Positions 34,489 through 52,105 of a stretch of DNA of 64,000 bases are shown here, in pieces. Below the pieces are notes generated by a model. That model ran no database searches. It saw nothing but the letters and a program-made list of their open reading frames with translations, and was not told the origin of the DNA. The translations under genes and the position numbers were made by a program. Source of the stretch: Clostridium ljungdahlii. GTDB lineage: Bacteria > Bacillota > Clostridia > Clostridiales > Clostridiaceae. Numbering within the stretch: the stretch's first letter is position 1; each line of letters opens with the position of its first letter. Location of the stretch: assembly GCF_001636845.1 (NCBI RefSeq), contig NZ_LITT01000011.1, positions 62,001 to 126,000 on the forward strand, written 5' to 3'.

Positions 34489-34521
34489 TTTAATTTAATT
34501 TTAACTTTAATCTGATAATAT
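34489..34521 (+). promoter_or_regulatory. Direct-repeat regulator site and promoter, phospholipase-like/TCS genes
   Basis: TTTAATT-TAAT-TTTAACT (34489-34506) followed after 9 bases by TAATAT (34516-34521). It is the weakest of the seven related sites, but a further TTTAATC overlaps it. If used, it would make the two-component system autoregulated. Confidence 0.5.
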
Positions 34522-34558
34522 GAAAATTAAATCATACACATAGAGAGGTGGATTTTTA

Positions 34559-35137
34559 ATGATAACAAATACACATCTGCTAATTTCTAAAATTATATAT
34601 AATTATTGTGGAAAAAAGTTAAATATTAAATTGAACAAATGGAGTTTTGCATATGGTAACATAAAACCAGATTTCGTAAAAGATGATTCCAATTATTGTC
34701 ATTGTATAAGCGGAAGTATAAATATGGTAAGAGAATATTCCAAGCAGTTGATTCACAATAAAATGTCAATTAAAAAATATTCTATTACTTTAGGTATGGT
34801 ATGCCATTTCATCTGTGACTATTTTTGTTTATATCATACAGAAAAATATAAAAATAAAAATATTTTTCAACATCTGATATATGAAATAGTACTTCATTTT
34901 ATTTTTATAAAACTTCTAATATGCGGAAAACTAAAAACTATTATAAATAGAGATATCGTTAAAAAGGATGTAGTATTAATAATAAATGATGTCTACCAAA
35001 AGTATGATAAGGAAGATAAGTCTTTTACAAAAGATATAAATTATGCAATTTCAGCAGCAATAATGATTACAGAAATAATAGTAAGCTCAGACAGATTGGG
35101 GTATAATTATGTCAGAAATAATAGTAAGGTATGTTGA
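34559..35137 (+). CDS. Zinc-dependent phospholipase C-like protein
   Basis: 192 residues, all helical in character, matching the zinc-dependent phospholipase C/ S1-P1-like fold. ITNTHLLISKIIYNY, FAYGNIKPDF, SITLGMVCHFICDYFCLYHTEKY and FQHLIYEIVLHF supply the His and Asp ligands (H6, D40, H82, D86, H92, H107 approximately). There is no signal peptide, so it may be cytoplasmic or membrane-associated. Small clostridial members lack a known substrate; a lipid or lipid-linked phosphate is plausible given the envelope genes around it. It precedes the two-component system by 81 bases on the same strand. Confidence 0.75.
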   Translation: MITNTHLLISKIIYNYCGKKLNIKLNKWSFAYGNIKPDFVKDDSNYCHCISGSINMVREYSKQLIHNKMSIKKYSITLGMVCHFICDYFCLYHTEKYKNKNIFQHLIYEIVLHFIFIKLLICGKLKTIINRDIVKKDVVLIINDVYQKYDKEDKSFTKDINYAISAAIMITEIIVSSDRLGYNYVRNNSKVC

Positions 35138-35218
35138 ATAGCTTGTTTTAATAAGAAGGTGTATAGTTAGAATATATAATAAGATGGTAGACAACTATTT
35201 TGATATGGAGGTGGCAGT

Positions 35219-35899
35219 TTGGAGGATTTTAGGATTCTTTTAGTAGAAGATGAAAAGCAAATGTCAATGTTTATTCAAATGGAGCTTACCCACGAAAAAT
35301 ATAAAATTGATGCAGCATATGATGGAAGAGAAGCTTTAGAAAAGGTGGAGGATAAAGAGTATGATTTAATTCTTCTTGATATTATGATACCAAATCTAAA
35401 TGGAATTGAAGTTTGCAGAAGAATAAGGCAATTCTCTCATGTACCTATTATAATGCTGACTGCTAAAAGTGATATACCAGACAAGGTTTTAGGACTTGAT
35501 GCAGGGGCTAATGATTATTTAGCTAAACCCTTTGCAATAGAGGAATTATTGGCAAGAATACGTGTATATGAAAGAGATAAAGCATTGAAAAATCAAACTG
35601 ATCAAATTAAAGTAAAAAATATTGTCATGGATAATAAAACACATCAGGTTTTAAGAGATGGCAAAGAAATTGAACTTACCAAAACAGAATATAATCTTCT
35701 TAAAATGCTGTTAATTAATAAAAATATTGTACTTACAAGAGATAAGTTAATTGAGGAAGTATGGGGATATGATTATTCAGGGGATACTAATGTGGTAGAT
35801 GTATTTATAAGGTATTTAAGGAGTAAAATTGATAATGAATGTCAAGATAAGCTTATAACTACCATAAGAGGTGTAGGCTATGTTATCAAAGATAATTAA
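35219..35899 (+). CDS. Response regulator, OmpR/PhoB family
   Basis: 226 residues. Receiver domain (1-118) with acidic pocket (VEDE), phospho-acceptor D54 (LLLDIMIPN) and Lys of AKPF. C-terminal winged helix (130-225) with LTKTEYNLLKMLLINKNIVLTRDKLIEEVWGYDYSGDTNVVDVFIRYLRSKI. Such proteins bind direct repeats about 11 bases apart, which is exactly the form of the seven TTTAATC-type sites found before envelope genes in this region. The start is TTG with GGAGGTGG close by. It overlaps the sensor kinase gene by 20 bases. Confidence 0.95.
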   Translation: MEDFRILLVEDEKQMSMFIQMELTHEKYKIDAAYDGREALEKVEDKEYDLILLDIMIPNLNGIEVCRRIRQFSHVPIIMLTAKSDIPDKVLGLDAGANDYLAKPFAIEELLARIRVYERDKALKNQTDQIKVKNIVMDNKTHQVLRDGKEIELTKTEYNLLKMLLINKNIVLTRDKLIEEVWGYDYSGDTNVVDVFIRYLRSKIDNECQDKLITTIRGVGYVIKDN

Positions 35900-37295
35900 T
35901 CGTACTTTAAAGATTATTAAGGGTGCAAAGATCTCTATAAAGATAACAATAGTATATGCTTTTATGTTTTCGGTAGTACTGCTTTTATTAAATGCATCTA
36001 TTTTATATGGTGTAAAGTATTATTTATATAACCAATCAAATAAACAAATAGATGATATGCAAAACATAATATTAAATAATATTATGGCAAAAAATCAGCA
36101 GTTGGATTTGTCAGATAAAGGGATCTTTTTAAATATTCCTTCTAAAGAAAATATATTTATAAGAATAATACAAGAAAGTGGTAAAGTAATAAATTCATCC
36201 GAAAAATTTGATTATAAAATTAAACTTCCTCATAATAATGATAAAAAAGTTCAGAATAGGGAAAGACACATGGAAGATAAAGATAGACATTTGACATATA
36301 AAAACGTTAAATTTCAAAGCAAAAAATATGGCACTGTATATATTCAAATAGTAAAAGATATGAATAGTGAATATAATTTTATGAAAATATTATTTGGAGT
36401 TATGGCTGCAGCTGATTTTATAGGAATTATCGCTTCTATTATATTAGGGTATATTGTAAGCAAGAGAATGTTAAGGCCCATTGATTATATAACTAAGACT
36501 GCTGAAAATATAAGTATTAACAATTTAAAAGAAAGAATAGAAGTAAAAGAACCTGAAGATGAACTGGAGAGACTTGCCAGCACTTTTAATAAGATGATAG
36601 ATAGGCTTCAAGAAGCCTTTAATAAGCAGGCACAATTTGTATCAGATGCTTCACACGAACTTAGAACTCCTGTTGCTGTTATTCAGGGCTATGCCAATCT
36701 ATTGGATAGATGGGGGAAAGATGACAAAGATGCCTTGGAAAAGTCAATTTATGGAATCAAATTAGAAGCTTCTAATATGGCTAATTTAATTGAGAAGTTA
36801 TTGTTCCTTGCAAAAGGTGACAGTGGTACTCAGTTGATAGAAAAAAAGGAATTTTGGCTTAATGAATTAATTGATGAGGTAGTTAAAGAAAGCAAAATAA
36901 TAGAACAAAATCATATAATATCTAGTAATAAAAATGATACTGTAAGAGTTTTTGCAGATTATAAGATGATAAAACAAATGCTAAGGGTATTTATTGATAA
37001 CAGCATGAAATTTACTCCAGAACATGGAAAAATAGATATAAGTTCAGAAGTACAGGGTAAAGTTGTAAAAATAACTGTTAGTGATACAGGCATCGGAATA
37101 CCAAAAGAAGAAATTCAAAATATATTTAATAGATTTTATATCGTAGATAAATCAAGATCTAAAGAAAAAGGAGGAACAGGGCTTGGACTATCTATTGCTA
37201 GATGGATTATAGATATGCATCAGGGGACTATAGATGTAGAAAGTGAAGAAGGAAAAGGTACAAAAATAACTGTTACGTTAAACTTAGATAAGTAA
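35880..37295 (+). CDS. Sensor histidine kinase
   Basis: 471 residues. Membrane helices at about 20-42 and 165-190 flank an extracellular sensor of about 120 residues; a HAMP domain follows (RMLRPIDYITKTAENISINNLKERIEV). The HisKA domain has H259 in SDASHELRTPVAVIQGYANLL. The ATPase domain has IDNSMKFTPE, VSDTGIGIPKE and KGGTGLGLSIARWI. It phosphorylates the response regulator encoded by the overlapping gene. Its signal is unknown; the genes with matching sites suggest envelope or lipid-carrier stress. A strong terminator follows. Confidence 0.95.
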   Translation: MLSKIINRTLKIIKGAKISIKITIVYAFMFSVVLLLLNASILYGVKYYLYNQSNKQIDDMQNIILNNIMAKNQQLDLSDKGIFLNIPSKENIFIRIIQESGKVINSSEKFDYKIKLPHNNDKKVQNRERHMEDKDRHLTYKNVKFQSKKYGTVYIQIVKDMNSEYNFMKILFGVMAAADFIGIIASIILGYIVSKRMLRPIDYITKTAENISINNLKERIEVKEPEDELERLASTFNKMIDRLQEAFNKQAQFVSDASHELRTPVAVIQGYANLLDRWGKDDKDALEKSIYGIKLEASNMANLIEKLLFLAKGDSGTQLIEKKEFWLNELIDEVVKESKIIEQNHIISSNKNDTVRVFADYKMIKQMLRVFIDNSMKFTPEHGKIDISSEVQGKVVKITVSDTGIGIPKEEIQNIFNRFYIVDKSRSKEKGGTGLGLSIARWIIDMHQGTIDVESEEGKGTKITVTLNLDK

Positions 37296-37318
37296 TGTAG
37301 TAATATTTAAAATAGTTA

Positions 37319-37358
37319 TAAGGCGAAAAATTTAATTTTTCGCCTTACTAATTTTTTG
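37319..37358 (+). terminator. Terminator of the two-component system
   Basis: AAGGCGAAAAA / TTTTTCGCCTT stem with a TTTAA loop, then ACTAATTTTTTG. Confidence 0.92.
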
Positions 37359-37415
37359 TCATATTTTTTTAAGGTACAGAGTAAAGATCATTTTTTAACA
37401 TAAATCTAAGAACTT

Positions 37416-37448
37416 TTTAACCCAATTTTAATCTACTAAGTTGATAAT
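37416..37448 (+). promoter_or_regulatory. Direct-repeat regulator site and promoter, PAP2 gene
   Basis: TTTAACC-CAAT-TTTAATC (37416-37433), then 9 bases, then the -10 GATAAT (37443-37448). The region 37395-37497 is also similar to the upstream region of the DedA gene at 48428. Confidence 0.75.
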
Positions 37449-37497
37449 ATATAAGAGGATAAAAGCTATTAAATTTTAATTATGAGGGGAGAAAAAT

Positions 37498-38073
37498 ATG
37501 CATTTAAATATTTTAAGAAAAATAGATATGTTTGATAATTATATTTTATTTTCTATTAAGAAATATGTACAAAATAAATATTTAGATATGTTGATGCCTA
37601 TAGTGACAAATATGGGGAACCTGGGTATTGTTTGGATTATTATAGCTATTATTCTAATATTAGATAAACCATATAGGATTATTGGAAGTGTAGTGATATT
37701 AACACTAATTGTGAGTACAATTGCTGGGGAAGGAATAGTGAAACATATAGTGAGACGAACTAGGCCATGTAACCAGCAAAATAGTTTGAATATGTTGATT
37801 TCAAAGCCAATATCTTATTCTTTCCCTTCAGGACATACTTTGTCTTCCTTTGCTGCTGCAGAAGTGCTGTCCATGTATTTTACTGAGTATAAGTTGATAT
37901 TTATAGGAATAGCATTTTTAATAGCTTTATCCAGAATGTATTTATATGTTCATTATCCAACAGATGTTATAGCAGGAGTTATACTTGGCATATTATGCTC
38001 AAAATTAATTTTTATAATTTTACAAGAAGGGCTTATGGAAAAGGCTGCTATATTTTATCAAAATATATTATGA
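37498..38073 (+). CDS. PAP2-family membrane phosphatase (paralogue 1)
   Basis: 191 residues, about six membrane helices. The three phosphatase motifs are intact: KHIVRRTRP, SFPSGHTLS, and SRMYLYVHYPTDVIAG. Bacterial PAP2 proteins of this size remove phosphate from lipid phosphates such as undecaprenyl pyrophosphate, phosphatidylglycerol phosphate or phosphatidate. The protein is very similar along its whole length to the one at 49190, and the two genes differ mostly by conservative changes. AGGGGAGA is the ribosome site. It stands alone behind its own regulated promoter. Confidence 0.9.
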   Translation: MHLNILRKIDMFDNYILFSIKKYVQNKYLDMLMPIVTNMGNLGIVWIIIAIILILDKPYRIIGSVVILTLIVSTIAGEGIVKHIVRRTRPCNQQNSLNMLISKPISYSFPSGHTLSSFAAAEVLSMYFTEYKLIFIGIAFLIALSRMYLYVHYPTDVIAGVILGILCSKLIFIILQEGLMEKAAIFYQNIL

Positions 38074-38093
38074 AAAATTGTTTTTAATACTTT

Positions 38094-38129
38094 AATAACA
38101 TGAGCATAAAAATTCTAGCTCATGTTATT
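38094..38129. terminator. Bidirectional terminator between convergent genes
   Basis: AATAACATGAGC / GCTCATGTTATT, 12-bp stem with a 12-base loop. A- and T-rich flanks on both sides serve the PAP2 gene and the glycosyltransferase gene. Confidence 0.85.
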
Positions 38130-38139
38130 GAAAAATTAG

Positions 38140-39345
38140 TTATTTCAGTTTTTGTAAATACCTATATACAATAGGTTTATCTGAATTTTTACTGACCAAT
38201 GGAACTACATCTCGAATCATAACTTTATTAGAATTATTATCTATGCTTAAAATAAAATTTACAATGTTTTCTGAAGTATACGGATTACTGAAGACTTTTT
38301 GAGCATGTTTAATTTTGTATAATTTAGTTCCATTATTTGAGATTAAATTATTTATAATAGTTTGTAGATTATCAATATCTTTACATACTACTCCAAGATT
38401 GTATTTTTCAATAAATTTTGGATTTTCTTCTTCTTGACCTGGCAAAGCACCAGTTATTATTAGTGGTACACTGCATGCAATGGCTTCCATCATAACATTG
38501 GGACTTCCTCTTGTAAATGCTATATCAGAAGACATCATTAAATCTTGTATATTTTCAACAAAACCATATATCTCAACTTTGCTTCCGTATTTTTCAACCA
38601 ATGATTGATGTAATTTATTTTTTAGTGATGTATTTCTACCTGCAACAATCTTTATTTCACAATTAAAGTTAAGGAGAAGAATCTCGGCTATTTTTTCCAT
38701 ATTTCCAACACCTTCACCACCGCTCATTATTAAACATTTTAAAGGTTTGCTAGTATTATAGTTACTATGTTCTATGAGACTATTTGAATAGTTGTAAAAT
38801 CTTGAACGCACTGGAAATCCTAACACTTTTATTTTATCTTCCATAACACCAAATTCCATACATTTATCTTTTGCCTCTTGTGTAGGACTTATAATGTAAT
38901 CAGCTCTTGGATCTGCCCATAGTGGGGATATACTTATTAGATCTGCAATAAGAGTAAGCACAGGTATTTTGATATTATATTTCTCTAGTATGTTTATAAC
39001 AGAGCCATTAAAATTAGGATGTATTGTTAAAATTAAATCAGGATGTACCTCTTTTAGCAATTTCAAAAATCTATCTTTTATTTTGAATTCAATGATTTCA
39101 TTGATGAGGGAAGGATTTGTAGAGGATATATCCCATATCAATTCCCATAGGCTCTCGGATTTTCTAGTAATTGGACCATATGCTTTACCTATGTTTAGTA
39201 AGGTCGTTCCGCCAAGAGAAAATCCATCAACAACATGAATTTTAACGTTATCATATTTTTGAAATTTTTCACATAAAGCCTCTGCTATACTCTTATGCCC
39301 ATGTCCTGTAAAATTAGAGGAAATGATGAGTATATTATTAACCAT
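38140..39345 (-). CDS. MGDG-synthase-like glycosyltransferase (GT28, UgtP-like)
   Basis: 401 residues. The N-terminal half is the MGDG-synthase acceptor domain (ILIISSNFTGHGHKSIAEAL, VVDGFSLGGTTLLNIGKAYGPITRKSESLWELIWDIS, PDLILTIHPNFNGSVINILEKYNIKIP). The C-terminal half is a GT-B donor domain with IMSGGEGVGNMEKIAEIL and SPNVMMEAIACSVPLIITGALPGQEEEN. Relatives add glucose or galactose to diacylglycerol (glycolipids, teichoic acid anchors) or form lipid II (MurG). A membrane-lipid role fits the regulon site upstream. Start ATG with AAGGAGG. Confidence 0.88.
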   Translation of the reverse strand: MVNNILIISSNFTGHGHKSIAEALCEKFQKYDNVKIHVVDGFSLGGTTLLNIGKAYGPITRKSESLWELIWDISSTNPSLINEIIEFKIKDRFLKLLKEVHPDLILTIHPNFNGSVINILEKYNIKIPVLTLIADLISISPLWADPRADYIISPTQEAKDKCMEFGVMEDKIKVLGFPVRSRFYNYSNSLIEHSNYNTSKPLKCLIMSGGEGVGNMEKIAEILLLNFNCEIKIVAGRNTSLKNKLHQSLVEKYGSKVEIYGFVENIQDLMMSSDIAFTRGSPNVMMEAIACSVPLIITGALPGQEEENPKFIEKYNLGVVCKDIDNLQTIINNLISNNGTKLYKIKHAQKVFSNPYTSENIVNFILSIDNNSNKVMIRDVVPLVSKNSDKPIVYRYLQKLK

Positions 39346-39493
39346 AATATACCTCCTTTCGTTAGATAAATTAGGTACTTACTAGTATTATAATGAGTAA
39401 ATAGCTGCGTAAGTTTATAAAAATTATAAGTAGGACACCATTATCATTCGTATTATATACTAGCTAATTAAATTTAAAGTAAGTTTAAGATTT

Positions 39494-39511
39494 CATTAAA
39501 ATTAGATTAAA
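39494..39511 (-). promoter_or_regulatory. Direct-repeat regulator site before the glycosyltransferase gene
   Basis: On the minus strand TTTAATC-TAAT-TTTAATG. A -10 at the usual 9-base spacing is not evident; TAAACT lies 7 bases downstream. The remaining 39346-39715 gap shows only a weak plus-strand TTGACA (39655-39660) for the MFS gene. Confidence 0.6.
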
Positions 39512-39715
39512 TTTAGTATCTTGATCAGTTAATAAATACATATATAATTTATTTTAAGTAGTTTTTCATTTTTTATAAATTAATTTTGCAGTATAAATTA
39601 TTAGATTGAGGTTATTTAGGATATATTAAGGAAGTAGGTTACAATAGTGGACATTTGACAAAATACATTAAAATTATATTTCAATAAATTACAATTTTAA
39701 AGGAGCTATCACTAT

Positions 39716-41116
39716 ATGAATACTAGTAATATAAAAATAACTTATACCATATTTGTTTTTGTAGCCCTGGCAGCTTTTGATAACCTAATTATAGGATTAT
39801 TTCCACCACTTTTTTCGTCTATTGCAAAGGATTTAAATATACAAGTGTATTCATTGGGAATTGTCTCAGCTGCTAACATTTTGGTTACATCTCTTTCATC
39901 AATTTATTGGGGATATCTTGCTGGAAAATTTAATAGAAAAAGACTTATTATGATAGGTACTATTTTTTGGTCAGTATCGGTATACTTAACTTCACGTTGT
40001 AGTAGCTATACTCAACTTTTTATTTTTCAATTTTTTACTGGATTAGGACTTGGGTGTATAGCTTCAATTGGATTTAGCGTTTTGACTGATTATATTCCCT
40101 ATAAGTTTAGGGGAATGTTATTAAGTCTTTGGGGCATGTCGCAGGGATTTGGTGGAATAGCAGGAGCTTTAATGGCATCACTTATTGCTCCTGCTACAAG
40201 CTGGAGAAAACCTTTTGAAGTTGTCAGTATTATTGGATTCTTATTAATTATTTTGTATTTTTTTATAAGAGAGCCTGACTTAGGTGAATCAGAACCAGAA
40301 TTACAAGATATTATTAAAGCAGGATATAAATATACTCCCAGCATTGAGTTTAAGTATTTGTATGATATTATTTCCAGAAAGAGTAACGTCTTATTGTTTT
40401 TACAGTCCTTTTTTATGAATATAACAACTGGAAGTTTGATATGGCTTCCAGCACTATATATTTCAAAAATTCAAAATCAAGGATATAGTATGAAGACTGC
40501 AATTATTGCTTCAGGATATCTTTTTGCCATATTTCAATTAGGTGGTTTGACATCACCTTTTTTTGGATATCTTGGAGATATACTTCAAGGAAAAACGTAT
40601 AGAGGAAGATCATTACTTACATCTTTTTTTATTTTTATAACCATGATATTTTACATAGCAATGTTTGTAATTCCAATGAATAAACTATTATTACATGATA
40701 GCAACAACTCTTTGTTAATACTTTTAGACTTATTAAGGCAAATTATTATGAATCCCTGGATAAGTATGATATTTATATTGTCTTTTTTTGCAAGTGCAGC
40801 TCAATCTGCAAATACACCAAATTGGCTTGCTTTAATAACTGATGTGAATCTTCCAGAGTATAGAGGAATAGCTTTTAGTATAGCTAATCTTGCTAATGGG
40901 CTAGGAAGAGCTATAGGAAATGCTGGAGTGGGTGTTTTATTATCCGTTGTTTCCTTATATGTAGGAGAACCGCAGAATTATATAATTACGTTAGCATTAT
41001 TTGAACTATTTTTAATTCCTTCATCTTTATTCTACATAAAGATGGCAAAGAATAATGAAGAAGATATAAATGAGGTGAAATCCATTCTTCGTAAACGAGC
41101 TAAATTAATTAATTAA
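39716..41116 (+). CDS. MFS transporter
   Basis: 466 residues with about 12 membrane helices. The family motif between TM2 and TM3 is YWGYLAGKFNRKRLIMIGT, and TM4-5 reads GFSVLTDYIPYKFRGMLLSLWGMSQGFGGIAGALMASL, characteristic of the spinster/sugar-phosphate-like MFS group. A long loop splits the two halves. The substrate is unknown; multidrug, lysolipid or organic-anion transport are the usual possibilities. AAAGGAGC is the ribosome site. It faces away from the glycosyltransferase gene and is probably a single-gene transcript. Confidence 0.9.
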   Translation: MNTSNIKITYTIFVFVALAAFDNLIIGLFPPLFSSIAKDLNIQVYSLGIVSAANILVTSLSSIYWGYLAGKFNRKRLIMIGTIFWSVSVYLTSRCSSYTQLFIFQFFTGLGLGCIASIGFSVLTDYIPYKFRGMLLSLWGMSQGFGGIAGALMASLIAPATSWRKPFEVVSIIGFLLIILYFFIREPDLGESEPELQDIIKAGYKYTPSIEFKYLYDIISRKSNVLLFLQSFFMNITTGSLIWLPALYISKIQNQGYSMKTAIIASGYLFAIFQLGGLTSPFFGYLGDILQGKTYRGRSLLTSFFIFITMIFYIAMFVIPMNKLLLHDSNNSLLILLDLLRQIIMNPWISMIFILSFFASAAQSANTPNWLALITDVNLPEYRGIAFSIANLANGLGRAIGNAGVGVLLSVVSLYVGEPQNYIITLALFELFLIPSSLFYIKMAKNNEEDINEVKSILRKRAKLIN

Positions 41117-42305: not shown

Positions 42306-42337
42306 GTAAGCTTTGATTAGTTATTATTCCATATTGC

Positions 42338-43507: not shown

Positions 43508-45487
43508 CTAAGGTGTAGTAAGATCTTTGTCTTGCAATCCTGAATGCACCTGCTGCATATAATTATGCCAAATTTGTCCCGGGTATGTTCCACCATATAA
43601 GTTATCAACATACCTTGGTATATCATATCCAACCCATACTACTGTAGTATAGTAGGCAGAATATCCGCATAACCAGCCATCCTTCTGGTTACTTGTTGTA
43701 CCAGTCTTAGCAGCGCTAGTAATTCCATTAAGCCTTACATTATATGCAGTACCCCAGGTATTTTCTAAAGTGCCTTTTAAAATATCCGACATTAAATAAC
43801 TTGCATTATAGTTATATACTCTTCTCTTTCCTAAGTTATTTTCATAAATAGTTTGTCCTTGGCTATTTACAATACTACGTATGCATGTAGGAGCAATAAA
43901 TTCTCCTCCCCTTGCAAGTGTTGAATAAGCAGATGCCATTTCTATGGGAGTTACTCCATAAGTTAAACCGCCTAATGCAGCAGATAGAGTGTAATCTTCT
44001 TTTACAATTTTATTGAAATCCATATCTCTTACGAAGGATAATCCATAAGCAGGGGTTATGTCATCAAATACTTGGTATGCAACGCTATTTAATGACATTT
44101 GCACAGCTGTTCGTATAGATATATCTCCCATATAAACATCACCATCATTATGAGGGCCTCCATCTATGTAATGATCATTTATAATAGTTGTGTCATCATA
44201 TCCTTTTTCAAAGGCAGGAGTATAAACTGCCAAAGGTTTAAAAGACGACCCAGGCTGTCTAAAGCATTGAAATGCCCTATTCAAATAATCTTTATGAGGA
44301 CTTGTTCTACCACCCACTATTGCTATAACATATCCAGTTTTATTATCTATTGAAACAGATGAACCCTGAAGAGAATATATTCCTTTATTTTGCTCTGTAA
44401 AATCTAGGAGCCCATTATCTAAGGAATCTTGTAGAAGTTTTTGTTTATACATATCTATAGAAGTATAAATTTTATATCCATTAGTGCGGATGTCATTTAT
44501 ACATTCGTTATATACATTAGAATAATCTTTATCATAACTAGCCATATCCTGCTGCGTATCGAATGTATTTTTAAATTGGAATCCATTTAGCTTCATAAGC
44601 ACTCTTGCAGCACAATCAAGAGCATAGGATTCAACCCATACATTTCCATCATATTTTTCTGGATTTAATACAATCTTATAGTTAATTGCAGTAGTGTATT
44701 GATAATCTGTAATATAATTATTTTTCCTCATTGATAATAGGATAAGATCTCTACGTTTTAATGTATTGTTTATATTCTTTATAGGGTTATAGTAAGTAGG
44801 ATCATTAGGTATTGCAGCTAAAAAACATATTTCTGATAAATTAAGTTCATTACAACTTTTGTTAAAATATCTTCTTGAAGCCGCCTCAATGCCATAAGTA
44901 TTATTAGCAAAATTAATATTATTAACATAAAATTCTAGGATTTGTTGTTTAGTATATTTTTGATCTAATTTTATAGCAATTATTATTTCTTCTAATTTTC
45001 TTTTGTAAGTTTTGTTAAAATTTAAAAACACAGTCCTTGCTAGCTGCTGTGTAATTGTACTTCCACCCTGTGTAATTTTTCCCTTGCTTTTTATAATAGA
45101 ATATAAAACTCTAAGGTTTGCCTTTATACTAAAAGCACCATGATTAAAATAATCTTTGTCCTCTATAGATATAAAAGCATTTTTTACAGCTTGAGGTATG
45201 TAAAAAGATGTTAAATATAGAGAATTCTTTGAACCATATAGTTTATTTATTACAGTATTTTTTGAATCATACAAATAAGTTGTTTGATGCCCATGAAAAG
45301 TACTATATGATATAGAATTTACTTTAGCTGACGCATCATTATAGAGTGATACTGCTATAGATAAATACTTAATACAAAAGAGTAATATAACTATTAGAAA
45401 TACAGAAAAAACTTTGAGCAGTGTATGTTTTTTTACTTTATGAGTTTTTTTGCTTTTTTGCTTTTTTGGCAATTGAGTCACTTCCAT
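43508..45487 (-). CDS. Class A penicillin-binding protein (PBP1a type)
   Basis: 659 residues: cytoplasmic basic tail, one membrane helix (about 22-48), GT51 glycosyltransferase domain (about 90-260: FISIEDKDYFNHGAF with catalytic Glu, QGGSTITQQLARTVFLN, KRKLEEIIIAIKLDQ) and a transpeptidase domain (about 330-640). The transpeptidase has the catalytic Ser in GSSFKPL, SLN and KTGTT, all intact. It polymerises lipid II and crosslinks peptidoglycan. The GT half is closely similar to the separate gene at 46644. No good ribosome site was seen at the ATG, so the start is less certain than the rest. Confidence 0.94.
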   Translation of the reverse strand: MEVTQLPKKQKSKKTHKVKKHTLLKVFSVFLIVILLFCIKYLSIAVSLYNDASAKVNSISYSTFHGHQTTYLYDSKNTVINKLYGSKNSLYLTSFYIPQAVKNAFISIEDKDYFNHGAFSIKANLRVLYSIIKSKGKITQGGSTITQQLARTVFLNFNKTYKRKLEEIIIAIKLDQKYTKQQILEFYVNNINFANNTYGIEAASRRYFNKSCNELNLSEICFLAAIPNDPTYYNPIKNINNTLKRRDLILLSMRKNNYITDYQYTTAINYKIVLNPEKYDGNVWVESYALDCAARVLMKLNGFQFKNTFDTQQDMASYDKDYSNVYNECINDIRTNGYKIYTSIDMYKQKLLQDSLDNGLLDFTEQNKGIYSLQGSSVSIDNKTGYVIAIVGGRTSPHKDYLNRAFQCFRQPGSSFKPLAVYTPAFEKGYDDTTIINDHYIDGGPHNDGDVYMGDISIRTAVQMSLNSVAYQVFDDITPAYGLSFVRDMDFNKIVKEDYTLSAALGGLTYGVTPIEMASAYSTLARGGEFIAPTCIRSIVNSQGQTIYENNLGKRRVYNYNASYLMSDILKGTLENTWGTAYNVRLNGITSAAKTGTTSNQKDGWLCGYSAYYTTVVWVGYDIPRYVDNLYGGTYPGQIWHNYMQQVHSGLQDKDLTTP

Positions 45488-45608
45488 TTTTAATTGTGTG
45501 CTTATAATAATATCCCCAGTAAACTTTGCATATATACTTTATATTGGAACTGCAATGTATTTAAAACATCTCCTTGTTTTAATCAATTTATAGAAAATTT
45601 AAGAATTA

Positions 45609-45641
45609 TTTAATCTGATTTTAATGATGTAATAATATTAT
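45609..45641 (+). promoter_or_regulatory. Direct-repeat regulator site and promoter of uppP
   Basis: TTTAATC-TGAT-TTTAATG (45609-45626), then 9 bases, then -10 TATTAT (45636-45641). It lies in the divergent region between the class A PBP gene and uppP, so it may influence both. Confidence 0.75.
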
Positions 45642-45743
45642 TAATTTATGGTGTTATCATATGGAGTAATTTTCTTTACAGCTGGCTATTATATATTTGA
45701 TAAGAAAGAGGTATAAATAAATTCATTTTAGGGAGGAATATAA

Positions 45744-46535
45744 ATGTCAATAATACAAGCAATCATATATGGTATTGTTCAAGGTATAGGAGAATTTTTG
45801 CCAATATCTAGTTCGGCTCACCTTATAGCTATTCCACAAATATTTGGATGGCAGGATCCTGGCCTTGCCTTTGATGTAGCACTACATCTTGGAACTCTTG
45901 CTGCGGTAATTGCATTTTTTTGGAAGGATTGGACTAAGTTAATTTATTCTGGTATTACGAAACCAAAATCTAAGGATGGTAAATTATTTTGGTTTATAGT
46001 AATTGCTTCCATACCTGGAGCTGTAATAGGAAAACTATTTGAAAAACAAGCTGAATCTGCCTTTAGAAACCTTGCCCTTATAGGTACTATGCTTATTATA
46101 GTAGGTATAATATTATATATTGCAGATAAGAGATATGATGGTGAGGTAGCAGTTGAGAATATAGGGTTTAAAAGAAGTTTTTCTATTGGATTATCACAAG
46201 CCTTAGCTATTATACCTGGTGTATCTCGCTCTGGAATCACTATGACAACTGGATTATTTTCTGGCCTTTCAAAAGAAGGTGCAGCCAGATTCTCATTTCT
46301 TCTTTCCACTCCAATTATTTTAGGAGCTGGATTACTTAAATTAAAAGATTTAATACATACTCCAATTAGCAGTATGCCATCATTTGCTATAGGTGTTTTA
46401 GTGTCTGCTGTGGTTGGATTTTTAAGTATTAAATTCTTATTAAATTATCTAAAGAATAAGGGATTTGGTATATTTGTAGTTTATAGAATTGTAGTAGGTT
46501 TTACTTTTATAGCTATTTACCTTTTAAGAAAATAG
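45744..46535 (+). CDS. uppP: Undecaprenyl-diphosphatase UppP (BacA)
   Basis: 263 residues, eight or so membrane helices. Hallmarks: QGIGEFLPISSSAHLI with the catalytic EFLP(I/V)SSSxH motif, FDVALHLGTLAAV, and IPGVSRSGITMTTGLF with the second PGxSRSG motif. The enzyme converts undecaprenyl pyrophosphate to the phosphate carrier used for cell-wall synthesis and gives bacitracin resistance. The length is standard. It has GGGAGGA as ribosome site and its own direct-repeat-regulated promoter. Confidence 0.96.
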   Translation: MSIIQAIIYGIVQGIGEFLPISSSAHLIAIPQIFGWQDPGLAFDVALHLGTLAAVIAFFWKDWTKLIYSGITKPKSKDGKLFWFIVIASIPGAVIGKLFEKQAESAFRNLALIGTMLIIVGIILYIADKRYDGEVAVENIGFKRSFSIGLSQALAIIPGVSRSGITMTTGLFSGLSKEGAARFSFLLSTPIILGAGLLKLKDLIHTPISSMPSFAIGVLVSAVVGFLSIKFLLNYLKNKGFGIFVVYRIVVGFTFIAIYLLRK

Positions 46536-46643
46536 TTATAAAATACTTTATTTTTGAGAGCTCTTTTTTATTATAGAAATTTTTTGTATAAAGCTGTGGT
46601 ACAATGATGTAAAAATAGAATTTCTAAGAAAAGGAGATTTTAA

Positions 46644-47423
46644 ATGCCAAGGGAAAAAAACAGAGGAAGTAGTTTATTAAAACATTTATTTTTAAGCATT
46701 TTGGTATTAGTTATTATTTTTAGTGGATTCATTTATCTTAAATATGGGCATACAGTTAAATCTTTATATGACGATGCAGTTATAAAAGTAAATAATTGTT
46801 CAGAGTATACTTTTAAAAATAGAGAAAAGTATTTAAATAACGGAAAATCTCTATATTTAGAATCTACACAAATTCCTAATAATGTGAAAAATGCTTTTGT
46901 TGTTATTGAAGATAAGAATTTTTATAAACATGGAGGAATTAGTACAGAGGCTGTTTTTAGATCGATATATTCTTTATTTGTTAACAATGGGAAAATAACA
47001 CAAGGGGGAAGTACTATTGCTCAACAATTAGCAAGAAATGTGTTTTTAAATTTTGATAAAAATTATCAAAGAAAATTGGAGGAGATGTTTATTGCTACAA
47101 AGTTAGAGCAAAAATTTACAAAAGATCAAATATTAGAGTTTTATATTAACAATATTAATTTTAGCAATAATACTTATGGTATTAATTCTGCTGCTAAAAA
47201 ATTTTTTAATAAAGATTGTAGGCAGTTAAATCTTTCAGAAATATGCTTATTAGTTGGTATACCTAATGATCCACAATATTATGATCCAATAAGGCATTTA
47301 AATAATGCCTTACAGCGAAGAAATTTAATATTAAAAAATATGAAAGAAAATAACTATATAACTGATACGGAATATGATAATGCCGTTAATTATAAAATAG
47401 TATTAGATCTGGGTGAAAAATAG
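46644..47423 (+). CDS. Monofunctional GT51 peptidoglycan glycosyltransferase
   Basis: 259 residues: one membrane helix (about 14-35) and a complete GT51 domain (VVIEDKNFYKHGGIS with catalytic Glu, QGGSTIAQQLARNVFLNFDKNYQRKLEEMFIATKLEQKFTKDQILEFYINNINF). The sequence follows the first 270 residues of the class A PBP at 43508 nearly position by position, then stops at VNYKIVLDLGEK where that protein goes on. It therefore looks like a PBP copy that lost its transpeptidase, now a stand-alone polymerase. The stop is clean and the ribosome site AAAGGAG is good. A terminator follows. Confidence 0.9.
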   Translation: MPREKNRGSSLLKHLFLSILVLVIIFSGFIYLKYGHTVKSLYDDAVIKVNNCSEYTFKNREKYLNNGKSLYLESTQIPNNVKNAFVVIEDKNFYKHGGISTEAVFRSIYSLFVNNGKITQGGSTIAQQLARNVFLNFDKNYQRKLEEMFIATKLEQKFTKDQILEFYINNINFSNNTYGINSAAKKFFNKDCRQLNLSEICLLVGIPNDPQYYDPIRHLNNALQRRNLILKNMKENNYITDTEYDNAVNYKIVLDLGEK

Positions 47424-47453
47424 TAATGCGTTAATACATTTCAATATTTTTTT

Positions 47454-47507
47454 AGAGCTTGTTCAGGTAACTCATAATAATGAGTATCTTGAATAAGCTC
47501 TTTTTTG
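47454..47507 (+). terminator. Terminator after the GT51 gene
   Basis: AGAGCTTGTTCA pairs with TGAATAAGCTCT around an inner ACTCAT/ATGAGT hairpin; TTTTTT follows. Confidence 0.88.
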
Positions 47508-47574
47508 AACTCCTAAGCACACTAGAAAATTAGAACCATATACTAAAAGAAAAGAATAAAAAAGGGGACTATAC

Positions 47575-48189
47575 ATGACATTAATTTTGTCTGCATTATT
47601 GTTCAGTTTATCCTCTAACCTAGATAATGTAGTTGTAGGTATTGCTTATGGAATAAAGAAAATAAGGATAGGAATAATCCCTAACCTTGCAATAGCAGTT
47701 ATAACTTGTACAGGAACATTTCTATCTATGTCACTTGGGGTGTATATATCAAAATTTTTACCTCACTTTATAGCAAATGCATTAGGTTCTATAGTCATTG
47801 CTATATTGGGAGTATATTTTATAACACAAAGTATAATAAAACTTATAAATAATAAAAAATCAAATGAACTTGCTTTAAAAGACATTACTGATATGATTGA
47901 ATATGCCGAAAAGTCAGATCTGGACAACTCTGGTGATATAAACATAAAAGAAGCTCTTCTTGTAGCATTTGGGTTAACCTTTAATAACTTAGGTACCGGC
48001 ATAGCAGCTAGTATAACAGGAGTTAATATTAAACTTACAGTCATATTTACATTTATGCTAAGTATTCTTACAATTATAATTGGTGAAGCTGTAGGTAATC
48101 ATGTATTGGGTAAATTATTTGGTAAATATGCACCATTAATCTCAGGCATATTGTTAATAGCACTTGGTATAATTGAATTCTTTAATTGA
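47575..48189 (+). CDS. ytaF: YtaF-like sporulation membrane protein (MntP-related)
   Basis: 204 residues, six membrane helices in two repeats. LSALLFSLSSNLDNVVVGIAYGIKKIRIG and VAFGLTFNNLGTGIAASITGVN are the two repeat signatures. A loop of EF-hand type (KSDLDNSGDINIKEALL) lies between them, as usual for YtaF. YtaF belongs to the manganese exporter-like superfamily and is expressed in sporulation in Bacillus; its substrate is not established. Start ATG with AAGGGG. It is flanked by terminators on both sides, so it is a single-gene unit. Confidence 0.88.
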   Translation: MTLILSALLFSLSSNLDNVVVGIAYGIKKIRIGIIPNLAIAVITCTGTFLSMSLGVYISKFLPHFIANALGSIVIAILGVYFITQSIIKLINNKKSNELALKDITDMIEYAEKSDLDNSGDINIKEALLVAFGLTFNNLGTGIAASITGVNIKLTVIFTFMLSILTIIIGEAVGNHVLGKLFGKYAPLISGILLIALGIIEFFN

Positions 48190-48240
48190 TGTTTTTAGTT
48201 ATTTTACTAATTGTTATATAAAATCAAATTAGAAGAATTA

Positions 48241-48279
48241 GATGCTGCCTCAAAATGCATTTTGAGGCAGCATCTTTTT
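48241..48279 (+). terminator. Strong terminator after the YtaF gene
   Basis: Perfect 17-bp inverted repeat GATGCTGCCTCAAAATG / CATTTTGAGGCAGCATC with no extra loop bases, followed by TTTTTG. Confidence 0.93.
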
Positions 48280-48344
48280 GTCTATTAAAAACTGGTAGAT
48301 ATTTATTTGATAAAAAATCATTTTTAAGATAAATCTAAGAGTTT

Positions 48345-48377
48345 TTTAATCCAATTTTAATCTCATATGTTGATAAT
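48345..48377 (+). promoter_or_regulatory. Direct-repeat regulator site and promoter, DedA-PAP2-PAP2 operon
   Basis: The best site of the set: TTTAATC-CAAT-TTTAATC (48345-48362), then 9 bases, then -10 GATAAT (48372-48377). Confidence 0.8.
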
Positions 48378-48427
48378 GTATACCAGAGTAAAGGTGAATT
48401 ATATTTTAATTACGAAGGGAGAAAAAT

Positions 48428-49102
48428 ATGAGTGTTATAGAAACTTTGATTGGTGTACTATTACATCTTGATAGATATTTAAATGTAATAATACAAAATT
48501 ATGGAATATGGACATATGCTCTTATATTTCTAATTATATTTTGTGAGACCGGATTAGTTGTTACTCCATTTTTACCGGGAGATTCTATTTTATTTGCAGC
48601 GGGAGCACTAGCATCTACTGGATCATTTGAAATATTAATACTATTTATTATATTTTACTTAGCTGCAGTTATTGGAGATACAGTTAACTATCACATAGGA
48701 AAAAAGATTGGAGCTAAAATTTTAGAAAAAGAAGATATTAAGTATATAAATAAAGAATATCTTAATAAGGCACACAGCTTTTATAAAAAGCATGGCTCTA
48801 TGACTATAGTAGTAGGGAGGTTCATACCTATAATAAGGACTTTTGTACCTTTTGTGGCTGGAATAGGGAAGATGGGTTATTCAAAATTTATTACTTATAA
48901 TATGCTAGGTGGATTTTTGTGGGTTACATTATTTTTAGGGGGAGGGTATTTCTTTGGAAACTTACCTTTTATAAAACAACATTTTTCATATGTACTAATT
49001 GCCATTATAATAATTTCTCTTATCCCAGGAGTAGTTACAGTAATTAAACAAAAGAGAAATGGAGGCAATAATGAAGATGATGTTATTAATACAGCATCTT
49101 GA
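48428..49102 (+). CDS. DedA-family membrane protein (paralogue 2)
   Basis: 224 residues. DedA signatures: IFCETGLVVTPFLPGDSILFAAGALA, YLAAVIGDTVNYHIGKKIG, FYKKHGSMTIVVGRFIPIIRTFVPFVAGIGKMGYSKFITYNMLGGFLWV. The acidic E and D of the first loop and R of GRFIPIIRTFVP are all present, unlike the weaker pattern in paralogue 1. Proteins of this type flip undecaprenyl phosphate or other lipid phosphates back to the inner leaflet. It leads an operon with two PAP2 phosphatases. Confidence 0.93.
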   Translation: MSVIETLIGVLLHLDRYLNVIIQNYGIWTYALIFLIIFCETGLVVTPFLPGDSILFAAGALASTGSFEILILFIIFYLAAVIGDTVNYHIGKKIGAKILEKEDIKYINKEYLNKAHSFYKKHGSMTIVVGRFIPIIRTFVPFVAGIGKMGYSKFITYNMLGGFLWVTLFLGGGYFFGNLPFIKQHFSYVLIAIIIISLIPGVVTVIKQKRNGGNNEDDVINTAS

Positions 49103-49189
49103 TAATTATATTCTCTTATGTATAAAGAATAATATGAAATGGATATATAATGGATAGAGCAACAGTTACTATGAAAAAGGGGTGAATAG

Positions 49190-49765
49190 ATGTATTTAAG
49201 TACTTTGAAAAGAATAAATATATTTGATAATTACATTTTATGTGTTATTGAGAAGTATATGCAAAATAGATATTTAGATAGATTAATGCCTATAGTAACA
49301 AGTATGGGCAATGGAGGATTTATATGGATTTTGATAGCTGTAGTTTTAATATTAGATAAACCACATAGGGCAATTGGAAATATAGTAATACTTACATTAA
49401 TCATAAGTACTATTGTTGGAGAAGGAATAATAAAACATATAGTAAGGCGGGTTAGGCCCTGCAATTATAAAAATAATATTAATCTTCTAATTGTAAAGCC
49501 TATGTCATATTCTTTTCCTTCTGGGCACACTGTATCTTCATTTGCTGTTGCAGAAATACTTTCTATGTATTTTAGCCAGTATAAGTTGATATTTATGGGA
49601 ATAGCTTTTTCAATAGCCTTTTCAAGGCTTTATTTATATGTCCATTATCCAACAGATATTATATCAGGAATCATAGTTGGAATAGTATGCGCTAAATTAA
49701 TTTTTATAGTTTTACAGGAAGGCTATTTATCGATGTTTTCTGTTTTTTATCAAAATTTATTGTAG
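49190..49765 (+). CDS. PAP2-family membrane phosphatase (paralogue 2)
   Basis: 191 residues, same length and layout as the gene at 37498. Motifs: KHIVRRVRP, SFPSGHTVS, SRLYLYVHYPTDIISG. It is 88 bases after the DedA gene with AAAGGGGTG as ribosome site and 15 bases before the next PAP2 gene. Placement between a DedA flippase and a BcrC-like enzyme supports a role on undecaprenyl pyrophosphate or a related lipid phosphate. Confidence 0.92.
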   Translation: MYLSTLKRINIFDNYILCVIEKYMQNRYLDRLMPIVTSMGNGGFIWILIAVVLILDKPHRAIGNIVILTLIISTIVGEGIIKHIVRRVRPCNYKNNINLLIVKPMSYSFPSGHTVSSFAVAEILSMYFSQYKLIFMGIAFSIAFSRLYLYVHYPTDIISGIIVGIVCAKLIFIVLQEGYLSMFSVFYQNLL

Positions 49766-49780
49766 AAAGGATAGTTAAAA

Positions 49781-50404
49781 ATGAATATGGAACTTTTTAG
49801 ATTAATAAATAATTTAGCAAATAAAAATAGTATTTTAGATAGTATAATGATTTTCTTTTCAAAGGATGTACCTTATATATTTATGGCAGCTCTTGCAGCA
49901 GTATTTATTTTAGGAATTGTAAAAACAAATTCTGATTATAGAAAGATTGCGTTTAGCACTTTTGTTATTACAGTAATCAACCTGATTTTAAGTTTTATTA
50001 TTGGAGGCATTTACTATGAGGACAGGCCATTTGTTCATAATAAGGTAAATCTATTATTTACTCATGTGAAAGACGCATCTTTTCCAAGCGATCATGCAAT
50101 GGGGACAATGAGTATAGCGTTGGGACTTGGAAAGTATAATAAGGTACTTAGTTTAATGTTAACTATATTGTCGGTAATTGTAGGATTTTCAAGAGTATAT
50201 GTTGGACAGCACTATCCTATGGATGTTATAGGTGCGTATATGATTGTTTGTGGAACAAGTTATATTTATAATCTGAAATTGAGGAGCAAAATTGAAAATT
50301 TGTATGAAATACTTGAAAAGAAATTGATAACATTGGGCAAATTTAGTAGGTTATACAATAAACAGAACTTACGCAGCACAAAAACAACATTCAAAAATCA
50401 ATAA
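49781..50404 (+). CDS. BcrC-like undecaprenyl-diphosphatase (PAP2 family)
   Basis: 207 residues. MNMELFRLINNLANKNSILDSIMIFFSKDVPYIF at the start and YEDRPFVHNKVN, ASFPSDHAMGTMS, FSRVYVGQHYPMDVIGA are typical for BcrC/YbjG-type undecaprenyl pyrophosphate phosphatases; the Asp in PSDH is the BcrC variant of PSGH. A basic C-terminal tail of about 35 residues is extra. BcrC enzymes give bacitracin resistance. Last gene of the DedA operon; a strong terminator follows. Confidence 0.92.
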   Translation: MNMELFRLINNLANKNSILDSIMIFFSKDVPYIFMAALAAVFILGIVKTNSDYRKIAFSTFVITVINLILSFIIGGIYYEDRPFVHNKVNLLFTHVKDASFPSDHAMGTMSIALGLGKYNKVLSLMLTILSVIVGFSRVYVGQHYPMDVIGAYMIVCGTSYIYNLKLRSKIENLYEILEKKLITLGKFSRLYNKQNLRSTKTTFKNQ

Positions 50405-50409
50405 CTTTA

Positions 50410-50465
50410 AGCACCTAATTTATTCCGAATAGTTATTGCTATGGAATAAATTAGGTGCTGTTTTT
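50410..50465. terminator. Bidirectional terminator between convergent genes
   Basis: Perfect 17-bp stem AGCACCTAATTTATTCC / GGAATAAATTAGGTGCT with a 16-base loop. TTTTT follows on the plus strand. It ends in the stop region of the LmbE gene. Confidence 0.9.
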
Positions 50466-51885
50466 AAATTGCATTTACCATTTTCCGTGCAGTTTTATCA
50501 AGTGTATGATTTTCTATAGAGGTTGAGGCATTTATAAACATATGGTCGAAATTTCCTGTATCTTTATAAGGAATAGTAATGTGGATAAATCCACTGTACA
50601 CAGAATATTTTATTCCTCCATATGTAGTTGTTATTGGAATGCTGGAATTGTGTCTTAACATTAATTTTTTGTCCTTAAATTTAATACTGAATTTAGAAAT
50701 TTTACCTTTGTTGAACAATATCATATTGATGTTATAACTAGTGAATTTGTCAATATTCAAATCTGTTTGTAAAAAAATGTGCAAATTATTTTCCTTGGAT
50801 ATTTCTGCATATATGTGGGAAATATCTGCATCTCTGCTTATTTCTAAGCTTAAAGTATCTTGCAGTGGGTCAGTAATTATTTCATTTTGCTTTTCAGCAG
50901 TTATTTTAATATCACTTTTTTCAAATTTTTCAATTGTTGGATTTGGACATTCTCCAAAAAGCTCATTTTTTCTTTCAAAAGCAGTTATAAGTGGTTTTAA
51001 TGTACGGAATTGAGTTCTATAACTTTGAAGCACTTTAGATTTTTCATTTATTTCATTATTGTTTAGATCTAATGCATACCAATTAGTACCTATTCCAGTT
51101 AATTTTTTTGGTGGTACTAGATAAAAGGAAGTATTTCTTTTAAGTGGTGTGGGCCAATCTCCTCTATGTACAAGATATAACCATATTTTTTTAGGGGTAT
51201 AATTTATATAAGTTAAAGTATATTGAACAAAAGCGTTAACTGCCCAGTGATCAGGGTGTCTGTCATTTGGATGGGGCATAACTATATAATCAGGTTTATA
51301 TTCATCAATTATTTTTGTTATATCAGAAACTAAGCTTTCGCCTGAATAAATAGCGTTTTTTGTATAACTGTTACTATAGGGAGATCTATTAGATTGAGTA
51401 AAATTGCTTTTATATGGATTGCTGTTATCCCAATTAGAACTCCATAAATGTGCAATTCCACCATCTGGACACCCTAAAAAAATTATATTATTTTTAGATA
51501 ATCTAAGTTGGCTTAATGCATTAATGCTTTCTTGTTGTCTTGTATAGCCAAATTTAATAAAGTCATTTTCCTTTGGAAATAAATTAAAATAATCTAGCTG
51601 TAATGCACTTTTAAAACCATCTCCGTTAGTGACTAATACAACTTTTACTTTAGCACCATTTTTTAAAGACTTTTTTATAAATTCTCCTGCTCCAAGTGTT
51701 TCATCATCGTTGTGTGGTGAGAATATTAATACTTTGGAGTCTTTTCCAGGCAGTTGTATATTGTCCATATTAAACCTGACAGAATAATTTGAAATAAATT
51801 CTCTAGAAAAGAAAACAATAATACAAACTATGATAATAGCTGATATAGTTGTAATTAATTTTATAGTTAGTTTGAATATTCTCAT
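50464..51885 (-). CDS. Membrane-anchored LmbE/PIG-L-type deacetylase
   Basis: 473 residues. One N-terminal membrane helix (TTISAIIIVCIIVFF) leads to an LmbE domain (about 50-270). Metal motifs are KVLIFSPHNDDETLGAGEF (PHxDDE) and PHPNDRHPDHWAV (HPDH). The C-terminal 150 residues form a separate beta-rich domain (DISHIYAEISKENNLHIFLQTDLN...). LmbE enzymes remove acetyl groups from GlcNAc-type substrates such as GlcNAc-PI or bacillithiol precursors. The outside location points to a cell-wall glycan or glycolipid. A direct-repeat site with a -10 lies upstream. Confidence 0.9.
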   Translation of the reverse strand: MRIFKLTIKLITTISAIIIVCIIVFFSREFISNYSVRFNMDNIQLPGKDSKVLIFSPHNDDETLGAGEFIKKSLKNGAKVKVVLVTNGDGFKSALQLDYFNLFPKENDFIKFGYTRQQESINALSQLRLSKNNIIFLGCPDGGIAHLWSSNWDNSNPYKSNFTQSNRSPYSNSYTKNAIYSGESLVSDITKIIDEYKPDYIVMPHPNDRHPDHWAVNAFVQYTLTYINYTPKKIWLYLVHRGDWPTPLKRNTSFYLVPPKKLTGIGTNWYALDLNNNEINEKSKVLQSYRTQFRTLKPLITAFERKNELFGECPNPTIEKFEKSDIKITAEKQNEIITDPLQDTLSLEISRDADISHIYAEISKENNLHIFLQTDLNIDKFTSYNINMILFNKGKISKFSIKFKDKKLMLRHNSSIPITTTYGGIKYSVYSGFIHITIPYKDTGNFDHMFINASTSIENHTLDKTARKMVNAI

Positions 51886-52019
51886 GTAGTTCGCCTTTCT
51901 GCAGTGTATAAATTAAAATTATTTTTTATTATGATATGGAAATTGTAAATAGATTATTCTAATTTAAATACCCAGTTTCTTTGAATTTTAGAGCTGCCCC
52001 AAAATAGCATTGAATCTGC

Positions 52020-52052
52020 ATTATTTTCAATAAAAATTAAAATCAGGTTAAA
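52020..52052 (-). promoter_or_regulatory. Direct-repeat regulator site and promoter of the LmbE-type gene
   Basis: On the minus strand TTTAACC-TGAT-TTTAATT (52052-52035), then 9 bases, then -10 AATAAT (52025-52020). It lies back to back with the next site. Confidence 0.65.
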
Positions 52053-52072
52053 AAATGTCTAATTAACTATTT

Positions 52073-52105
52073 TTTAATCTAATTTTAATGATTTAGATGT
52101 ATAAT
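52073..52105 (+). promoter_or_regulatory. Direct-repeat regulator site and promoter of the sunset-domain gene
   Basis: TTTAATC-TAAT-TTTAATG (52073-52090), then 9 bases, then a perfect -10 TATAAT (52100-52105). Confidence 0.78.

Follow-up and report, generated by a model that had tools for sequence, protein, structure and literature searches.

A candidate four-heptamer operator linking an ArlR/CovR-like two-component system to predicted undecaprenyl-phosphate recycling genes in Clostridium ljungdahlii

Undecaprenyl phosphate is the carrier for wall polymers, and to our knowledge little is known about how bacteria adjust its supply. Regulons of OmpR-family response regulators are a known kind; in the PhoB/PhoP class, tandem boxes lie over the -35 position and PhoB bound at its box recruits RNA polymerase. 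We analyzed 64,000 nucleotides of Clostridium ljungdahlii (RefSeq assembly GCF_001636845.1, contig NZ_LITT01000011.1, positions 62,001 to 126,000; hereafter the window), where a response regulator gene at 35219 (product RR-A) and a sensor histidine kinase gene at 35880 stand among genes with predicted envelope roles preceded by arrays of TTTAATC-like heptamers. The best reading of the pair is an ArlR/CovR-like two-component system, and RR-A likely binds these arrays, activating its own operon together with neighbouring genes whose predicted role is to recycle undecaprenyl phosphate. The literature searched, mostly judged by title and start of abstract, contained no account of this regulon or its operator, and queries with the motif strings TTTAATC, TTTTAATC and GATTAAA returned only unrelated papers, as judged by title and abstract. 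DedA proteins have been tied to undecaprenyl phosphate recycling only recently, according to the accessible part of PMC10127716.

In the PDB, the DNA-binding domain of RR-A is closest to those of ArlR from Staphylococcus aureus (6kyx, best match, 3.9e-27) and CovR, with TNVVDV(Y/F)IRYLR in common. Further, RR-A aligns in 4 pieces, over 88% of its length and at 54.5% identity, with a plasmid record of S. aureus annotated arlR. The likeness to ArlRS is one of pairwise similarity only, and the accessible descriptions have ArlRS acting through MgrA on surface genes rather than on a PAP2, DedA and UppP set. A motif ascribed to ArlR, TTTTCTCAT-N4-TTTTAATAA, did not turn up in the literature searched and carries no weight here. 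Like the PhoB/PhoP class, the locus has direct repeats that are spaced by 11 bp and keep a set distance from the -10, whereas the sequence and the genes differ and RR-A does not reach the cut-off of the PhoB model. The operator reported for streptococcal CovR, AATRANAAAARVABTAAA, consists of two tandem 6-bp half-sites with a 5-bp spacer and 11-bp phasing (PMC8893699, accessible part). The reverse complement of the core described below fits it at 14 of 18 positions (one of them an N; hand count without a control), and the recognition region of CovR is similar to that of RR-A. However, the same partial text describes CovR mainly as repressing virulence genes, whereas the arrays here sit where an activator would. 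HexRK of Clostridioides difficile resembles the present system, by description only, in lying next to a monogalactosyldiacylglycerol (MGDG)-synthase-like gene, and it is linked to daptomycin and bacitracin resistance. It differs in its hexSDF operon, in a kinase likened to B. subtilis YrkQ and in a reporter that neither drug induced, and the accessible part of its published description gives no operator (PMC10128005).

RR-A carries a receiver domain (PF00072, 5.4e-33) and a winged-helix Trans_reg_C domain (PF00486, 1.4e-27), both above the Pfam cut-off, and its proposed targets bear tandem direct half-sites about 11 bp apart, as in the OmpR/PhoB family. The pair stays below the model cut-offs of WalRK/YycFG (NCBIfam YycF 222.5 bits against a cut-off of 340, WalK 245.5 against 725), and RR-A below those of PhoB (TIGR02154, 213.3 against 296.2), VanR (NF033117, 183.4 against 350) and MtrA (NF040689, 238.7 against 300). 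The kinase matches ArlS_N weakly, below the Pfam cut-off; a Foldseek search with the model of its sensor region gave no match below 0.001, and no relative of the kinase was found in the viral contigs searched. At the loci L119, L140 (G132) and L061 (G010) the genes are possibly interrupted, with a stop inside the regulator match (G132) and kinase matches in pieces.

A preliminary description of this DNA had listed seven pairs of TTTAATC-like heptamers (at 34489, 37416, 39494(-), 45609, 48345, 52035(-) and 52073), six of them followed by a -10-like hexamer. A direct print-out of the sequence confirmed all seven at these positions, and the six hexamers (TAATAT, GATAAT, TATTAT, GATAAT, AATAAT and TATAAT) each lie 9 bases past the second heptamer. 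At a base composition of 27-34% GC, the bare pair is uninformative, since TTTAATC-N4-TTTAATC with up to three mismatches is no commoner in the window than expected by chance (58 matches versus 54.6). The specific feature is the near-perfect core together with its spacing. An exact search for TTTAAYCNNATTTTAATS gives 6 matches in the 4.36-Mb genome, of which 5 fall inside the window, and none for its reversed control. The pattern TTTAAYYYRATTTTAAY-N11-AWWAT, which was fitted to six of the seven sites, has exactly those six as its perfect matches in the genome and gains a single further place, on contig C10, when one mismatch is allowed. At up to two mismatches the whole genome returns 21 matches versus 21 for the reversed control, and relaxed core patterns are likewise at background (21 versus 19). 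Because these looser scans are at background, we claim no larger regulon in this genome, apart from the one extra site on contig C10. At L065:11107-11526 (G000:C10), this sole further near-perfect site is followed after 52 bp by a short Ig-like (Big_4) protein.

A matrix trained on foreign sites is a stronger test, since the fitted pattern was derived from the window sites themselves. The eligible pool comprised 41 core sites without the DUF4342-type signature and outside both this genome and its near twin G006; nine sites with fewer than 3/6 matches to a -10 at +9 were dropped, giving a matrix of 55 columns from 32 training sites. Its top seven matches in the window are the seven arrays, with scores of 47.9, 39.9, 35.8, 33.5, 18.5, 17.6 and 6.7. 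Across 50 first-order Markov windows we obtained a mean of 0.02 matches scoring at least 12, and maxima with a mean of 5.4 and a highest value of 16.7. The score of 6.7 belongs to the 39494(-) array aligned on its third and fourth heptamers and lies among the maxima of the null windows; aligned on the pair first described, this array scores 3.3 and ranks tenth, because its -10 follows the fourth heptamer.

The repeat pair is only part of a unit that is larger than first described, with up to four heptamers at an 11-bp period. Alignment of extended sites gives the 48345 array as TTTAAGA-TAAA-TCTAAGA-GTTT-TTTAATC-CAAT-TTTAATC, N9, GATAAT, and the 39494(-) array reads TTTAATC-TAAT-TTTAATG-AAAT-CTTAAAC-TTAC-TTTAAAT-N9-TAGTAT. 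The latter had been the exception to the -10 rule; it fits once the third and fourth heptamers are counted. All seven sites would then share one rule, with 9 bp separating the end of the last heptamer from the -10. For a wider view of the anatomy, 48 non-redundant core sites were drawn from 52 records lacking the TTATATTT of DUF4342-type promoters. They were chosen by the core alone, regardless of -10, include sites of this genome and still hold a few DUF4342-type variants. Here the best TATAAT match at +9 averages 4.12/6 and reaches at least 4/6 in 75% of the sites, the next best offset doing so in 42%. T[TC]TAA recurs at -11 (31%), -22 (17%) and +33 (12%), with all other offsets at 6% or less except +5, which is an overlap inside the core. 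In 38 DUF4342-type promoters, which are nearly identical to one another, the -10 score peaks at +5 (5.00/6), +31 (4.79/6) and +36 (4.76/6); the +31 peak corresponds to 9+22, the position that two weaker heptamers placed after the strong pair would give. Two geometries are suggested, one in which the strong pair adjoins the -10 (six window sites) and one in which it would lie two helical repeats upstream, as at 39494(-) and, if their -10 is so assigned, in the DUF4342-type promoters of other genera. The type-a matrix used here scores the second geometry poorly, and glycosyltransferase targets in other genera may be undercounted.

The proposed link between regulator, motif and envelope genes is supported by co-occurrence in the genus, co-location in the family, held-out sites and the kinship of the DNA-binding domain to ArlR/CovR. 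Regulator relatives were defined by at least 63% identity in a genus sample of 13 genomes and a family sample of 206 genomes, the clostridial kinship of the family being inferred from low GC content and general knowledge of such families. Within the genus, 7 of the 8 genomes that have such a relative contain the exact core, as against 0 of the 5 that have none (Fisher p 0.005). Across the family there are 93 exact core matches in 66 of 206 genomes and 19 of 46 genera, compared with 8 for the reversed pattern. The regulator is present in 56 family genomes (60 genes), 29 of which have core matches, 53 in total. Of these 53, 29 are found no more than 10 kb from the regulator, against an expectation of 0.27 that treats matches as independent; although this genome and G006 are almost copies of each other, the excess does not hinge on the two. 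Matches this close come from 24 of the 29 genomes and from 10 genera. A same-strand open reading frame (ORF) within 450 bp follows 85 of the 93 core-site records and is lacking for 8; two of the 93, L116 and L117, are second copies cut by the locus end. The 85 ORFs comprise 36 DUF4342-type, 10 PAP2, 8 regulator, 7 DedA and 4 ABC genes, two each of UppP, glycosyltransferase, sunset and PepSY, and 12 singletons, with both UppP and both sunset records coming from this genome and G006. As a specificity control, at least 80 loci of more distant regulators (39-55% identity; 1.38 Mb of mixed base compositions) gave 3 matrix matches scoring at least 14.

The strongest evidence comes from 29 held-out regulator loci (518,871 bp), which contributed nothing to training and lack an exact core within 10 kb of the regulator; four further loci were left unscored, because training sites close to the regulator had come from their genomes. 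At a threshold of 14, the matrix returns 34 sites spread over 24 of the 29 loci, and 29 of these sites, in 23 loci, lie on the same strand and within 450 bp upstream of a relative (E at most 1e-8 to a window gene) of the response regulator, PAP2, DedA or UppP. The reversed matrix gives 1 site, and 20 column-permuted matrices give a mean of 0.2 and a maximum of 1. The grouping of regulator, kinase, operator and PAP2/DedA/UppP genes persists while the exact core has drifted. Maps of 30 other loci, mostly picked for a core match or the regulator, show the same arrangement in many and none in some (such as L057 and L260).

Table 1. Operators, genes and terminator-like hairpins of the locus (window coordinates; scores are matrix scores).
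Feature	Position	Strand	Details
Operator-promoter of the phospholipase C-like, regulator and kinase operon (putative autoregulation)	34489..34521	+	TTTAATT-N4-TTTAACT, N9, TAATAT (34516-34521); score 17.6
Zinc-dependent phospholipase C (ZnPLC)-like protein, first gene of putative regulator operon	34559..35137	+	PF00882; 81-bp gap to regulator gene
OmpR-family response regulator RR-A, proposed activator	35219..35899	+	Domain matches
Sensor histidine kinase, HAMP and extracellular stretch modelled PDC/Cache-like	35880..37295	+	Domain matches, model
Terminator-like hairpin ahead of 37416 site	37319-37347		
Four-heptamer operator	37394..37448	+	TTTAACA-TCTAAGA-TTTAACC-TTTAATC, N9, GATAAT; alignment, matrix
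PAP2 phosphatase, predicted undecaprenyl-diphosphate phosphatase	37498..38073	+	89.9 bits to SepP, cut-off 250
MGDG-synthase/diglucosyl-diacylglycerol-synthase-like glycosyltransferase	38140..39345	-	Domain/family matches
Four-heptamer operator, second geometry	39457..39511	-	Strong pair leads; TTTAAAT as fourth heptamer, N9, TAGTAT (39457-39462)
Operator	45587..45641	+	TTTATAG-TTTAAGA-TTTAATC-TTTAATG, N9, TATTAT; alignment, matrix
UppP/BacA undecaprenyl-diphosphate phosphatase	45744..46535	+	TIGR00753 230 bits, above cut-off of 217.5
Terminator-like hairpin ahead of 48345 site	48240-48275		
Best-scoring operator of the window	48323..48377	+	TTTAAGA-TCTAAGA-TTTAATC-TTTAATC, N9, GATAAT; matrix
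DedA-family membrane protein	48428..49102	+	PRK10847 255.1 bits, cut-off 236
Two PAP2 phosphatases downstream of DedA	49190-49765, 49781-50404	+	Gaps of 87 and 15 bp
LmbE/PIG-L-type deacetylase, weakest proposed target	50464..51885	-	
Site before LmbE/PIG-L gene	52020..52052	-	TTTAACC-N4-TTTAATT, N9, AATAAT; score 18.5
Site before sunset-domain gene	52073..52105	+	TTTAATC-N4-TTTAATG, N9, TATAAT; score 33.5
Protein with C-terminal sunset domain	52138..52758	+	NF051437 28.2 bits, cut-off 27

The features of the locus are collected in Table 1. Since terminator-like hairpins precede both, the sites at 37416 and 48345 probably start new transcription units. DedA and the two PAP2 genes downstream of it are probably in the same operon. 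The weak site form with TAATAT found before the regulator operon also precedes the regulator in G109 and G107 (L098 at 1387, score 16.5; L099 at 1400, score 15.6). Undecaprenyl diphosphate is the predicted substrate of PAP2, and it stays a prediction because similarity to named undecaprenyl-diphosphatases is weak. The DedA protein is a predicted undecaprenyl-phosphate flippase. Its residues E40, D52, R131 and R137, read by eye without an alignment, stand where COG0586 flippases carry their key residues, two acidic residues and two arginines in the re-entrant helices. In YghB these are E39, D51, R130 and R136, with the acidic pair in the first and the arginine pair in the second re-entrant helix (PMC10127716, accessible part).

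Three of the targets named in the preliminary description hold only in part. UppP is a target by exact core in this genome and G006 only, but in two held-out loci matrix sites also precede UppP relatives. G006 keeps the sunset gene along with its site; a core site before such a gene is confined to these two genomes. For LmbE, a weak target, a site exists in the window, but it has no counterpart found in G006 and does not recur as a core site in other genera; G006 itself retains only the last 145 residues of the LmbE gene (L053:4704-5203, beside the sunset promoter), the longer copy being in the window. A relative of the glycosyltransferase in G115 (L253) has an exact core 307 bp upstream. In G006, an extra matrix site (L052:11949, score 28) lies between the glycosyltransferase and MFS genes, in about 2 kb missing from the window.

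As a mechanism, we propose that the kinase senses an envelope signal and phosphorylates RR-A. Dimers of the regulator would fill the heptamers, a weaker pair and the strong pair TTTAATC-YRAT-TTTAATS, around the place where a -35 hexamer would be expected and further upstream, and would recruit RNA polymerase as PhoB does at its box. Activation would raise UppP, the PAP2 phosphatases and DedA plus a glycolipid synthase, and the first three would turn undecaprenyl diphosphate into the monophosphate and return it to the inner face. On a larger scale, this may be a dedicated lipid-carrier regulon, present across many genera of one low-GC family, that keeps undecaprenyl phosphate circulating by turning on its entire recycling (PAP2 and UppP phosphatases and the DedA flippase) through a four-heptamer operator, and that forms one envelope-homeostasis network with a DUF4342-linked sister system using the same code, a view for which we see about as much reason to accept as to doubt it.

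The sister system of this genome consists of a DUF4342 membrane protein, a regulator and a kinase (L066:7780-10322, G000:C1), the regulator gene lying at 196485-197153, about 99 kb from that of RR-A. The sites might be read mainly by this system, or by both, which would make the local regulon a cross-talk node rather than one private to RR-A; we take this seriously but consider it unlikely. The sister regulator is 57% identical to RR-A and the recognition regions are close (TNVVDVFIRYLRSKI in this genome, DTNVVDVYIRYLRSKI in two genus sisters). The DUF4342-type genes counted above stand behind the core in other genera, with a response regulator relative of 52-58% identity in the same locus in 20 of 22 cases examined; 12 of these 20 sister-type regulators carry ETNVIDVYIR(F/Y)LRTKI, the search pattern having missed the other 8. 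The sister regulator probably reads the same motif in other genera. However, its own promoter in this genome carries four TCTAAT-like repeats 11 bp apart instead of TTTAATC, possibly a diverged operator code. Core matches near RR-A are about a hundred times above expectation, and 4 genus genomes with only a sister-type regulator have no core. On these grounds the sister regulator is not favoured as sole owner of the sites. The two systems seem to have shared an operator code in evolution, and there may be cross-talk between them in this genome. As to the DUF4342 label, one scanned member falls just below the Pfam cut-off and this genome's own member above it; the literature searched for DUF4342 yielded no paper. 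Many species of one genus have a near-invariant promoter (TTTAATC pair, TTATATT, ATTAATT, TATTAT) before DUF4342-type genes (L068, L070, others at about 1501).

The heptamers could also belong to the promoter proper, being recognized by an alternative sigma factor or acting as an UP element with no response regulator involved. Their AT-richness and the fixed 9-bp distance to the -10 would suit this, but 39494(-) and its twin keep the phase and not the distance of the strong pair, and neither the multi-copy 11-bp phasing nor the tight linkage to one regulator gene would be expected, making such a role improbable, although no search was aimed at a linked sigma-factor gene. Almost no weight can be given to chance AT-rich repeats near an envelope gene cluster: the loose heptamer pattern at window background and the relaxed patterns at genome background are what chance would produce, yet the matrix, the held-out loci, the reversed and permuted controls and the family-wide excess contradict it.

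Several observations nevertheless weigh against binding and activation by RR-A, or narrow its support. The core columns of the matrix are near-fixed, since the exact core pattern found the training sites, with only the flanks free, and the nine eligible sites with a poor -10 were excluded from it. The 34489 site is marginal, just above the null maximum. No exact core is found in 27 of the 56 regulator-bearing genomes and no matrix site in 5 of the 29 held-out loci, which are new sequence and not all new lineages, as several share a genus with training genomes. Some core matches precede genes without a clear envelope role (HMGL-like, DUF347, ferric-reductase-like), and others lie inside stop-free frames of at least 120 codons, on the same strand in L027, L089, L142 and L227 and on the opposite strand in L242. 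The -10 of the DUF4342-type promoters is ambiguous, with +5 and +36 scoring comparably to +31. Finally, the sites may not belong to RR-A alone, because the recognition region of the sister regulator is similar.

If RR-A does control these genes, a conserved operator tying phosphatases and a flippase to one two-component system would provide a regulatory handle on the recycling step. It could further serve as a reporter for lipid-carrier stress in clostridia-like bacteria, help to find functions for the linked genes whose role is unknown (DUF4342, sunset, LmbE, ZnPLC-like) and possibly help to determine how well cells tolerate bacitracin and other envelope drugs.

Elsewhere in the cluster, between 41216 and 43340 on the minus strand, the window holds a second VTT/DedA-like gene, a DUF2680 protein and two small ORFs of unknown role, without a matrix site before them. 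In three genus relatives (L023, L027 and L030) the core lies 48-59 bp before a 218-aa ABC ATPase, a recurrent target.

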